Assembly (NCBI RefSeq): GCF_000209165.1
Contig: NC_009046.1
Span: 1,488,001 to 1,552,000, forward strand
Origin: Scheffersomyces stipitis CBS 6054
Taxonomy: Eukaryota > Ascomycota > Pichiomycetes > Serinales > Debaryomycetaceae
DNA: 64,000 nucleotides
Direction: 5' to 3'
Shown in pieces: positions 47,802 to 51,213 of the stretch. Positions within the stretch are counted from its first letter, which is position 1. Each line of letters starts with the position of its first letter. The position numbers were made by a program, and so were the translations under genes. Below the pieces are notes generated by a model, which saw nothing but the letters and a program-made list of their open reading frames with translations, was not told the DNA's origin and did no database searches.

Positions 47802-48665
47802 ATGTCGGCTCCCAACAGTAAGACAGCCGAGAGACCTGGTTTGGAGGCACAGATCCAGAGAAACCCTCATCCGGACTTCCGCAAGGTTGAAAGGGAAAGA
47901 CCTCCATTTGAATCCGATATCTCGTGGAAATACACCCAAATTCCCAAGACGGACTGGAAAATCGGTGATGGGGCCAATGACACCGAGTGGAAAAAGCATA
48001 AAAAGATCCAGATTGATCCTTATGGAGACCTGAGAAAACCTGTGGATAACTACAAGACGCTAATCAGTGCTGTAACACCAAGACCAATTGGGTTTGTTTC
48101 CACTGTTAATCGCAAAGGCGAGAGAAACTTGGCTCCATTCTCGTATTTCTCAGTGGTTAATCACGATCCTCCACTTTTCACGATTGGCTTTTCTGGAGGC
48201 TTGGATAACCCCAAGGATTCAGCCAAAAACGTCATTGAGACTGGTGAATTGACCATCAACATCATCAGTGAATGGTTTATAGAAGCTGCCAACTTCTGCT
48301 CCACTAACTCTCCGTTTGGAGTAGACGAATGGAAGTTGTCAGGTTTGACTCCTGCAGAGTCCACTATTGTAAAGCCTCCTCATGTTGCCGAATCTGCCTT
48401 TTCTATAGAAGCCAAGTTGGTCACCCACCACGAATGGAAATCCAAACTTGACCCTAACAAGTCTACTGGTACCTTGGTTATTGTGGAAGGTGTCAACTTC
48501 CATGTTAGAGAGGATGTCATCAACGACGACTTGAACATCATCGACATCGCCAAATTGAAACCCGTTTCGAGATTAGGAGGAATCACCTACGGTAGATCCA
48601 TTACTGGGTATGAGAGCTTGAGACCAGATTACGAAAAGGATGTTGTTAATGTGAACAAAATTTAG
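47802..48665 (+). CDS. FMN-binding flavin-reductase-like protein (split-barrel)
   Basis: 287 residues from the ATG at 47802; the frame extends upstream only through non-ATG codons. The core of the flavin reductase-like domain (PF01613 type) is at about 80-230: KTLISAVTPRPIGFVSTVNRKGERNLAPFSYFSVVNHDPPLFTIGFSGG, DSAKNVIETGELTINI and LVTHHEWKSKLDP, ending in RLGGITYGR. Such proteins bind FMN and either reduce flavin for two-component monooxygenases or act as small oxidoreductases. The location next to DQD1 and the dioxygenase suggests it supplies reduced flavin for hydroxylation of aromatic substrates, but no monooxygenase is in the window, so this is inference. No transmembrane or signal sequence. 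Confidence 0.85.
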   Translation: MSAPNSKTAERPGLEAQIQRNPHPDFRKVERERPPFESDISWKYTQIPKTDWKIGDGANDTEWKKHKKIQIDPYGDLRKPVDNYKTLISAVTPRPIGFVSTVNRKGERNLAPFSYFSVVNHDPPLFTIGFSGGLDNPKDSAKNVIETGELTINIISEWFIEAANFCSTNSPFGVDEWKLSGLTPAESTIVKPPHVAESAFSIEAKLVTHHEWKSKLDPNKSTGTLVIVEGVNFHVREDVINDDLNIIDIAKLKPVSRLGGITYGRSITGYESLRPDYEKDVVNVNKI

Positions 48666-49139
48666 ATATAATGTGAGAAAATCTGATTTATACAAACTAT
48701 TAGATCAAATAGAGAAAGCTATAAACGAACATCGTGTAATATTAAAGTATTTTATGTCATATCCACTACATAAAAGCTGGACCAGAGTATTAGATAGACC
48801 AATATGTTGAAAATCTCACCGAATAGTCTATGCATTTTGCAACCATTTTCTAACTTTATGGTTAGATAAGAAAAATACCCATGTAGGCAAGACGCATTTA
48901 GAGGTTCCGTAAGGATAACAAATGCAGGCACTCTTCATATAAAGTGCCACAAGGTTTGTCAGCCATTAGTAACTTGACCATAGTGGGCGAAGGGGTCACC
49001 TGACTTAATCAATAACGATTACGCTATCAGAACAATGAGGAAATAATATAAAGGTAGCTGCGAAATTCTCGATGGCTGCGAAATCAGAAGAAAATCATTT
49101 ACGTACAATAAGTAAATATTGAATTTCTTTCTTGTGAAT
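48666..49139. other. Promoter of the macrodomain-sirtuin gene
   Basis: 474 bp. A TATAAA (49047-49052) is followed by two direct GCTGCGAA words (49057-49064, 49075-49082); the ATG is at 49140. No other gene. Confidence 0.55.
49057..49082. promoter_or_regulatory. Paired GCTGCGAA elements behind a TATA box
   Basis: Two same-strand copies 18 bp apart (start to start), 58-83 bp upstream of the macro-SirTM ATG and immediately 3' of TATAAA. Factor unknown. Confidence 0.4.
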
Positions 49140-50891
49140 ATGTCTTCCCCTGATATTGTCAAAGTGTTACTGTATCTTGTTCAGGAGTCGGAAAATACCT
49201 CTCTTGAAAGATATACTGCTGCTGCCCTAGAATCTTCCGAGGTCTACACTCAACTTCAGCTCTTGAAATATATGCTAACCGTGAGAAGTCCAGATCCACC
49301 ATTACCAACAGAAATCAATCAGGATATAAATAGAATACTTTTTCACCGATCACATAATAAACTCTTTACTTCGAGGCACTCTATAAAAGAAAAGCTCCGT
49401 TTTGCTGATTTATCTCCAAAACTATCCATTTGGAAGGGAGATATCACCACTATTTCTGATGTCACAGCCATAGTAAACGCAGCGAATTCAGCCCTTTTGG
49501 GCTGTTTCCAGCCTAGTCACCGTTGCATTGATAATATCATCCACGCTGCCGCTGGGCCAGATTTACGTCGTGCTTGTTATAATCTTGTTGAGCAAAGAGA
49601 TTTTACTCAAGAACCAGTCGGAAGTGCCCAAATTACGCCTGGATTTAATTTACCTGCCAAAATGGTAATACATACAGTTGGTCCCCTGCTTCTCCCTGGA
49701 AGTGAACCTAATCAAGAAGAAATATCACAGTTGGCAGCTTGTTACACTTCTAGTTTAGCAAAGTTGGAAGAACAAGAAGAGGACGGGAACGACAAGTCGA
49801 TTGTTTTTTGTTGCATTTCCACAGGCTTGTTTTCTTTTCCAAATGATATTGCTTCAAATATTGCAATAGAATCTGTGAGAAATTACTTCTCTGAACATCC
49901 ACACTCTTCTATTTCTGAAGTTATTTTCAACGTATTCACTGAAACGAATCTCAAGTTGTATCGGCAAAATTTTGCTGAATACCAAGAGAGGGAAATTCTT
50001 GTGCCAATTGAACAACCCATATTTGAAACACATCACCCAATTATAGAAGTTTCGAAAAAGTTAATTCAAGATACAGATTACCTTATTGTTAGTGCTGGGG
50101 CTGGATTGTCAGCTAGTGTGGGACTCGATTACTCTTCTAATGAAGTGTTCGACAAACACTATAGAAATTTTAAAAAGTACGGACCAACAAGGCTCTACGA
50201 GACAATCGGTCATCAATGGCCATCTAAGCTAGTAGAATGGAGTTTCTGGTTCCATCATTATGAAACTGTTTCCCGTTGGCCAGCATCTGAGAGCTATCAG
50301 AAGTTGGTAAGAATGTTGAATTGTGCAACTAATTCCTTTGTCATTACAAGCAATGCAGATGGCTTTTTTATAAAGAACGGATATGATCCTAAGAAGGTTT
50401 ACAGTATCCAAGGAAACTATTATTGGATACAGTGTCCAATAAAGTGTACACAAGATTCTTTCAGGCCTATGGATGCTGAACTTCAGAAAGTTAAACCATA
50501 CATTGATCTCTCTACGAACTTATTGATGGATTCCTCTCACATTCCAAGGTGCGAGAATTGTGGACATATTATGACTATGTGCCTCAGGGGAGGTTGGAAA
50601 TTTAATGATACACCCATGGAGACAGAGAAAAAGAAGTATAAGGAACTTTTGAATAAAATAGTGAGAGAGAACCAAAAAGCAGTGTTATTAGAGTTTGGAG
50701 TTGGTCTCAACACTCCAAGTGTTTTGAGATGGCCCAATGAAGAATTGGCAAGTGAAAACGAAAATAATTTCACTTTGATAAGGGTTGGTAATGGTCCAAG
50801 TAGTACAGTGCCTATCGAATACATAGAGAAGGAGAATTTCATAGTGATAGATGCTGATGCCAGCGAAGTGATCGACTTATTGGTTTCTTGA
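49140..50891 (+). CDS. Macrodomain-SirTM fusion: ADP-ribosyl hydrolase plus class M sirtuin ADP-ribosyltransferase
   Basis: 583 residues from the ATG at 49140 (an in-frame TTG seven codons earlier is not used). After about 90 helical residues, a macrodomain spans about 95-265: GDITTISDVTAIVNAANSALLG, then C122, H127 and C129 in GCFQPSHRCIDN, the zinc site of Zn-type macrodomains, and HTVGPLL and ISTGLFSFP. A Sir2 domain spans about 300-583: SAGAGLSAS (about 317-325), TSNADGF with Asn405, IQG with Gln424 in place of the usual catalytic His of HG, and four zinc Cys (432, 436, 471, 474). The His-to-Gln change and this pairing are marks of SirTM, which in bacteria mono-ADP-ribosylates lipoylated GcvH-L while the macrodomain removes the mark. 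Here both are one protein. Substrate in yeast unknown; lipoyl proteins are the obvious guess. Confidence 0.88.
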   Translation: MSSPDIVKVLLYLVQESENTSLERYTAAALESSEVYTQLQLLKYMLTVRSPDPPLPTEINQDINRILFHRSHNKLFTSRHSIKEKLRFADLSPKLSIWKGDITTISDVTAIVNAANSALLGCFQPSHRCIDNIIHAAAGPDLRRACYNLVEQRDFTQEPVGSAQITPGFNLPAKMVIHTVGPLLLPGSEPNQEEISQLAACYTSSLAKLEEQEEDGNDKSIVFCCISTGLFSFPNDIASNIAIESVRNYFSEHPHSSISEVIFNVFTETNLKLYRQNFAEYQEREILVPIEQPIFETHHPIIEVSKKLIQDTDYLIVSAGAGLSASVGLDYSSNEVFDKHYRNFKKYGPTRLYETIGHQWPSKLVEWSFWFHHYETVSRWPASESYQKLVRMLNCATNSFVITSNADGFFIKNGYDPKKVYSIQGNYYWIQCPIKCTQDSFRPMDAELQKVKPYIDLSTNLLMDSSHIPRCENCGHIMTMCLRGGWKFNDTPMETEKKKYKELLNKIVRENQKAVLLEFGVGLNTPSVLRWPNEELASENENNFTLIRVGNGPSSTVPIEYIEKENFIVIDADASEVIDLLVS

Positions 50892-51213
50892 AATTCGAAA
50901 AAAAAAAGTCCTAGCTGAGGAAACTAATGTTTAAAAGTGCAGTTTTGGTTTTTTATATTTATGTACACTCATATGTATACCATTAGTAATTTATTATAAA
51001 AGCCAGATATGAATTGTTTTCAGATGTACGATTCCCCTATTTGGATATATCAACTATTGCAGAGGTCTCATTATTTCGCAGCCAAATGGTGCACGTGACC
51101 TCATCGAAAAAATTCAAATTTGTATGCCAGAGCGATTCCAAATGCTTAATGAATTTTTCAACTTCTTCAAACTTGCTGCTCTTATCTTCATAACAACCAT
51201 ACAAACACAAAAC
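50892..51213. other. RPA12 promoter
   Basis: 322 bp. TTCGCAGC at 51075-51082 and CACGTG at 51092-51097, 10 bp apart, about 120-140 bp upstream of the RPA12 ATG. Nothing else seen. Confidence 0.5.
51092..51097. promoter_or_regulatory. CACGTG box upstream of RPA12
   Basis: CACGTGAC; Cbf1-type consensus next to a GCTGCGAA word. In CTG-clade yeasts Cbf1 takes part in ribosome-related regulation, so a role at a Pol I subunit gene is plausible. Confidence 0.4.

Follow-up and report, generated by a model that had tools for sequence, protein, structure and literature searches.

The open reading frame at the centre of this study is almost certainly the Scheffersomyces stipitis ortholog of MFS1, and its product carries a zinc macrodomain (Zn-Macro) and a class M sirtuin (SirTM) on a single chain, with the macrodomain first, as seen by phmmer and in the structure model. 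Judged from its sequence, this one protein probably both attaches ADP-ribose to other proteins and removes it, and the write-and-erase chemistry proposed in the initial annotation is supported as likely. Our overall reading, in which we have good confidence, is that of an MFS1 ortholog performing reversible mono-ADP-ribosylation on a target that probably is no lipoyl protein and resides outside the mitochondrial matrix; the non-lipoyl nature of the target, taken by itself, is favoured with moderate confidence. The sequence, predicted fold, residues, single copy, and genome content come from this analysis, both chemistries, the stress induction, and the Candida albicans deletion phenotype come from published relatives, and the activity of yeast Mfs1 and its target are what we infer.

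Fusion enzymes of this family are already known in fungi. The 2015 paper that named the class M sirtuins also named the fungal fusion, Mfs1, and listed it in Candida, Aspergillus, and Fusarium, among others (PMC4518038). The same paper describes it as the fungal form; of the earlier remark that fusions occur “in some fungi”, the fusion stands and the rarity does not. A 2024 paper reports the structure 8RSN (PMC11490716), that of Mfs1 from Fusarium oxysporum f. sp. cubense (Foc1Mfs1), which the yeast protein matches over nearly its whole length. C. albicans Mfs1 (orf19.2285) is another close known system, likened here by its published description: its deletion gave better growth in H2O2 (PMC4518038), and the gene was up 17.6-fold at 30 min with a compound triggering a Cap1-type response (PMC3639977). 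S. stipitis itself is not a known pathogen. The 2024 paper leaves open which protein Mfs1 modifies physiologically (PMC11490716). Because fusion, structure, and stress induction have already been published, the yeast protein is a further member of the known Mfs1 family. We also note that C. albicans orf19.2283 is a putative 3-dehydroquinate dehydratase.

Table 1. Features of the MFS1 locus, numbered from the first letter of the window, i.e., the whole 64,000-nucleotide stretch of S. stipitis DNA that was analysed.
Feature	Position	Strand	Basis or remark
Upstream gene, Flavin_Reduct (PF01613)	47802..48665	+	Pfam; same strand as MFS1, directly before it
TTAGTAA	48966..48972	+	Putative AP-1/Cap1 site
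Two copies of promoter element, AGCTGCGAAAT and GGCTGCGAAAT	49056..49084	+	One exact (49074-49084), one with 1 mismatch (49056-49066)
Complete Mfs1 CDS, 583 aa, code 12	49140..50891	+	ATG at 49140 to stop at 50891, unbroken ORF
N-terminal helical bundle, aa 1-92	49140..49415	+	Model; helix starts at residue 6, without presequence-like tail
MacroD-type zinc macrodomain, aa 93-283	49416..49988	+
Zinc loop C122, H127, C129, D131, H135	49503..49544	+	Identical in 119/119 rows
Class M sirtuin domain, aa 298-583	50031..50888	+
Asn405 (SpySirTM Asn118)	50352..50354	+	SirTM profile and 119/119 rows
Gln424 (SpySirTM Gln137; His in other sirtuins)	50409..50411	+	SirTM profile and 119/119 rows
Structural zinc cysteines C432, C436, C471, C474	50433..50561	+	Identical in 119/119 rows
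Arg483 (SpySirTM Arg192)	50586..50588	+	SirTM profile and 119/119 rows
GVGLNTP, fitting GVGx[NT]TP (motif from PMC4518038)	50697..50717	+	Sequence
Exact inverted copy of promoter element	51073..51083	-	Between MFS1 and the next gene

The gene is present once in the 15.44-Mb genome (8 contigs), and code 12 turns its two CTG codons, 11 and 183, into Ser11 and Ser183. Among the matches listed, the best 120 of 577, the closest named relative is that of Scheffersomyces xylosifermentans (60%). Pfam recognizes the macrodomain (Macro, E 5.9e-30) and gives no SIR2 match for the sirtuin half; this miss is a gap of the Pfam model, because both the SirTM profile and the fold detect a sirtuin there. When compared with the PDB by phmmer, residues 16-581 align to Fusarium Mfs1 (8RSN, E 1.5e-130) and residues 306-544 to SpySirTM (5A3A, E 2.9e-18), and the predicted structure (pLDDT 88.2) is helical from residue 6; a three-helix bundle is a feature of Zn-Macros (PMC11490716). 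Two records deserve a separate remark: 8RSN has Ala at the position of the catalytic Asn, where Mfs1 relatives including one from Fusarium (P0080) have Asn, and is perhaps an engineered inactive form, and an Aspergillus record (P0098) has a zinc-cluster transcription factor fused ahead of Mfs1, perhaps through a merged gene model.

The family assignment made in the initial annotation is borne out by these matches and by the residues themselves. In the 119 aligned rows, drawn from the best 120 of 577 matches, the named ones being fungi and many others unnamed, N405, D407, Q424, R483, and the four zinc cysteines of the sirtuin are identical throughout, window included, as are C122, H127, C129, D131 (of the Dx3H motif), and H135 of the macrodomain. 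By counting along 5A3A, Asn405, Gln424, and Arg483 correspond to Asn118, Gln137, and Arg192 of SpySirTM, and in the tree set, which has 38 prokaryotic SirTMs, Asn and Gln occur in all 38, the latter always as QG, and Arg in 36. The placement of Gln424 relative to the catalytic His had been chosen beforehand as the point on which the assignment should turn: a SirTM profile built from the window protein and 13 prokaryotic sequences, which also recovers canonical sirtuins (E 2e-4 to 1e-2), aligns its QG onto the HG of Sir2p and SIRT5, so that Gln424 does replace the deacetylase His, as claimed. In SpySirTM, mutating Asn118, Gln137, or Arg192 strongly cut activity, and changing Gln137 to His abolished it (PMC4518038).

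With writer and eraser on one chain, a single molecule could both set a mono-ADP-ribose mark and reverse it. The C-terminal SirTM domain would consume NAD+, Asn405 and a bound water would aid the release of nicotinamide, Gln424 and Arg483 would position the ribose, and the ADP-ribose would end up on a side chain in a partner protein. It would then be taken off again by the N-terminal zinc macrodomain, with Zn2+ on C122, H127, and C129 serving as a Lewis acid and the D131/H135 motif helping to grip the distal ribose. The mark would arise mainly under oxidative or electrophile stress, probably on an acidic residue or thiol of a non-lipoyl redox enzyme outside the mitochondrial matrix. At the position packing against the zinc loop (Asn46 of SauMacro), the yeast differs from most of its Mfs1 relatives in having Thr47, where 111 of the 119 rows have Cys; in a comparison by type, it is Asn in 78 of 79 prokaryotic rows, and 110 of 117 fungal-type rows have Cys there. 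The macrodomain zinc is missing from the Fusarium Mfs1 crystal (PMC11490716), and because of this and of Thr47 in place of the usual Cys, the eraser activity of the yeast protein could be weak.

The initial annotation had proposed a lipoyl carrier as the target, i.e., mitochondrial GcvH or the E2 of a 2-oxoacid dehydrogenase, a reading that we now regard as unlikely. According to the 2024 paper, no SirTM substrate other than GcvH-L is known (PMC11490716), and the modification requires prior lipoylation; the tested SirTMs were absolutely selective, accepting GcvH-L when lipoylated but not canonical GcvH, from either S. aureus or E. coli, in its lipoylated form (PMC4518038). Furthermore, the Zn-Macros of Mfs1 fusions failed to demodify SpyGcvH-L, yet demodified PARP1 E988Q (PMC11490716); in these published assays, GcvH-L and canonical GcvH both came from bacteria, rather than fungal Mfs1 being paired with lipoyl proteins from fungi. 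Carriers are available in the yeast, since it encodes GcvH along with two E2s and one other lipoyl protein, three more PF00364 matches in long frames being taken for biotin enzymes, but the search of the full genome for a GcvH-L paralog returned a single GCV_H match (C1:3286052, contig 1, in an ORF of 177 residues) and no second GcvH. As had been stated, neither GcvH-L nor a lipoate ligase adjoins MFS1: the GCV_H match is on another contig, and of the two lipoate ligase-family matches, one is on contig 4 and the other at C6:702227, ∼835 kb from MFS1. Two columns of the basic patch for GcvH-L docking, which flanks the active site of the macrodomain, are Leu and Pro in the window protein; they are basic in only 5/17 and 3/17 extended-operon rows and thus do not discriminate.

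The N-termini also count against a lipoyl target. Mitochondrial presequences lack acidic residues, and the first 25 residues of all four lipoyl proteins have none and are net positive (+3 to +6), whereas those of Mfs1 include four acidic and two basic residues. At least one acidic residue occurs there in 117 of 118 Mfs1 rows and a net positive charge in 43 of 118, the window protein being counted twice in both. Because the lipoyl N-termini are non-acidic and that of Mfs1 is acidic and helical from residue 6, different compartments are suggested, the charge count being a crude proxy for a targeting predictor; matrix import of Mfs1 without a presequence is possible.

Sir2-fold NADases occur in defence, and Mfs1 could by analogy be a defence or self-limiting NADase that mainly burns NAD+, which we consider very improbable. 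The better growth of the C. albicans deletion in H2O2 is what the loss of a costly enzyme could produce (PMC4518038), but Mfs1 has no PADLOC match at E 0.001, its eraser domain and SirTM catalytic set are conserved, and NAD+ was stable in the SpySirTM assay condition (PMC4518038). A conventional NAD-dependent deacylase is scarcely credible, for although the sirtuin half has the sirtuin fold and NAD site and draws weak matches, far under the cut-offs, from NCBIfam deacylase models, the invariant Gln424 stands where the catalytic His should be, and tested SirTMs gave no appreciable deacylation in published assays.

Reversible modification of a non-lipoyl target, the reading that we prefer, may also be viewed against the prokaryotic relatives. 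A scan of prokaryotic contigs with the single sequence found no relative, but one with the fungal alignment succeeded, giving 478, of which the best 80 (L009-L088) were analysed; in none of these 80 does one ORF hold both domains. A SirTM lies nearby in 60 loci, 17 with GcvH-L and LplA and 43 without. The former are of the type of the extended bacterial SirTM operon (Staphylococcaceae, Lactobacillales, and Bacillaceae), comprising GcvH-L, Zn-Macro, SirTM, LplA, OYE, and LLM, which equals yeast Mfs1 in its Zn-Macro and SirTM residues but consists of separate genes and has GcvH-L and LplA inside, whereas the GcvH and lipoate ligase-family genes of the yeast are elsewhere. The minimal pairs, found in Methanobrevibacter, Desulfovibrio, and Clostridia, have Zn-Macros 38-42% identical to that of the yeast (13 aligned), and in 35 of the 43 loci without GcvH-L the macrodomain precedes the SirTM, as in Mfs1, although they remain two genes, sometimes abutting or overlapping.

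In both domain trees the fungal rows (13) form one group, with support of 100/99 each, and since they group together in both, the sequences are in line with one fungal fusion event. The apparent sister of this group differs by domain, being Mailhella in the macrodomain tree (89/96) and Brevibacterium in the sirtuin tree (99/96), where both rows are long. In the Brevibacterium locus (L035), the macrodomain adjoining the SirTM is split over two frames. A Lipomyces protein (P0020) falls with Aspergillus in both trees and not with other yeasts, which may reflect either gene transfer from one fungus to another or an artefact of the trees. The viral collection gave one relative among 41 pattern-matching stretches, a lone Zn-Macro (L138, 4734-5534), next to ORFs that were judged by eye to be serine recombinase-like and ParA/ParB-like.

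The prokaryotic cassettes without GcvH-L often have redox-type neighbours, which by analogy may count towards a non-lipoyl target. Of the 80 loci, 32 have an HxlR-family gene no more than 3 kb from the cassette, namely 28/43 pairs without GcvH-L, 0/17 with it, and 4/20 loci without a close SirTM. Such genes came first from gene calling in 25 loci, and five of them, used as blastp queries against all ORFs, retrieved 33 ORFs, 32 within 3 kb, leaving only one further such ORF in the loci, a count that HxlRs unlike the five queries would escape and in which the matches of L017 and L059 are short fragments; Pfam confirmed all seven members tested. The distance is at most 200 bp from the cassette in 27 loci, and from the macrodomain gene itself in 26; counted more crudely, an HxlR is as close to 30 of 1046 other genes in these loci, many of them necessarily being its other neighbours. 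Methanobrevibacter dominates the link, with 18/19 pairs versus 10/24 in the others, and the arrangement varies: most Methanobrevibacter show a divergent one, Clostridia and L024 one with overlap in the same direction, and in Desulfovibrio the HxlR gene is one gene away. An N-terminal Cys-Pro, at the position of the redox Cys of YodB-type regulators, is kept in 31 of the 33 HxlR ORFs. Three further cassettes lie by Rrf2 regulators, and five by NAD(P)H-binding proteins. No paper joining HxlR with macrodomain and sirtuin was found in a literature search that mostly did not cover subscription papers, and the link to GcvH-L-free pairs is possibly new.

A bolder and rather doubtful extension would make the Zn-Macro/SirTM pair an ancestral, lipoate-independent module of thiol-redox or electrophile stress, from which the GcvH-L operon is derived. 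Fungal Mfs1 would then keep this older, lipoyl-free mode, with a redox flavoprotein or a regulator as its substrate in the cytosol or the nucleus, and would be controlled by redox transcription factors, which seems to be the case for its prokaryotic relatives (HxlR, Rrf2). If this were true, the flavin reductase-like gene directly upstream would be the first candidate partner or target. The genome has one other PF01613 match besides this gene. Among the prokaryotic loci, the start of the Zn-Macro is overlapped by a PF01613 gene in L058, L066, L074, and L077, and L063 and L075 have one no more than 3 kb away; five of these six are without a detected SirTM, some contigs being short, and the SirTM of L063 is 2.5 kb off. 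A PF01613 neighbour also occurs for 10 of 1063 other genes, and blastp of the yeast protein against the clostridial PF01613 proteins gave no alignment; as a partner of Mfs1 it is possible, a lead. The case against lipoyl targets, together with the HxlR/Rrf2 and flavin-enzyme neighbours, would steer the target search to redox proteins, for which the single MFS1 copy and the 8-contig genome make this yeast convenient.

Regarding the promoter, TTAGTAA fits the AP-1/Cap1 consensus, and AP-1 control of MFS1 is possible from this site, although AP-1-type sites in the window are at chance (11 found versus 10.63 expected). The two copies of an unassigned element reported earlier are indeed present, one with a mismatch, and the 11-mer occurs in the window also at 2069. 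With at most one mismatch, the window holds 8 copies versus 0.66 expected from a shuffle control, which is fairer than the genome-wide contrast of 148 exact copies of GGCTGCGAAAT versus 2 of the reversed word, flattered because that control has extra CpG. The 10-mers of the element were not found as words in the literature covered, which mostly excluded subscription papers. No pathway can be assigned to it, because the genes near GGCTGCGAAAT, compared by eye, are varied and share no common theme. In 40 genome stretches, 31 of 42 copies lie outside called ORFs; GGCTGCGAAAT thus looks like a general promoter site that would say little about Mfs1, and the factor bound there may be one of the general regulatory factors that CUG-clade yeasts have.
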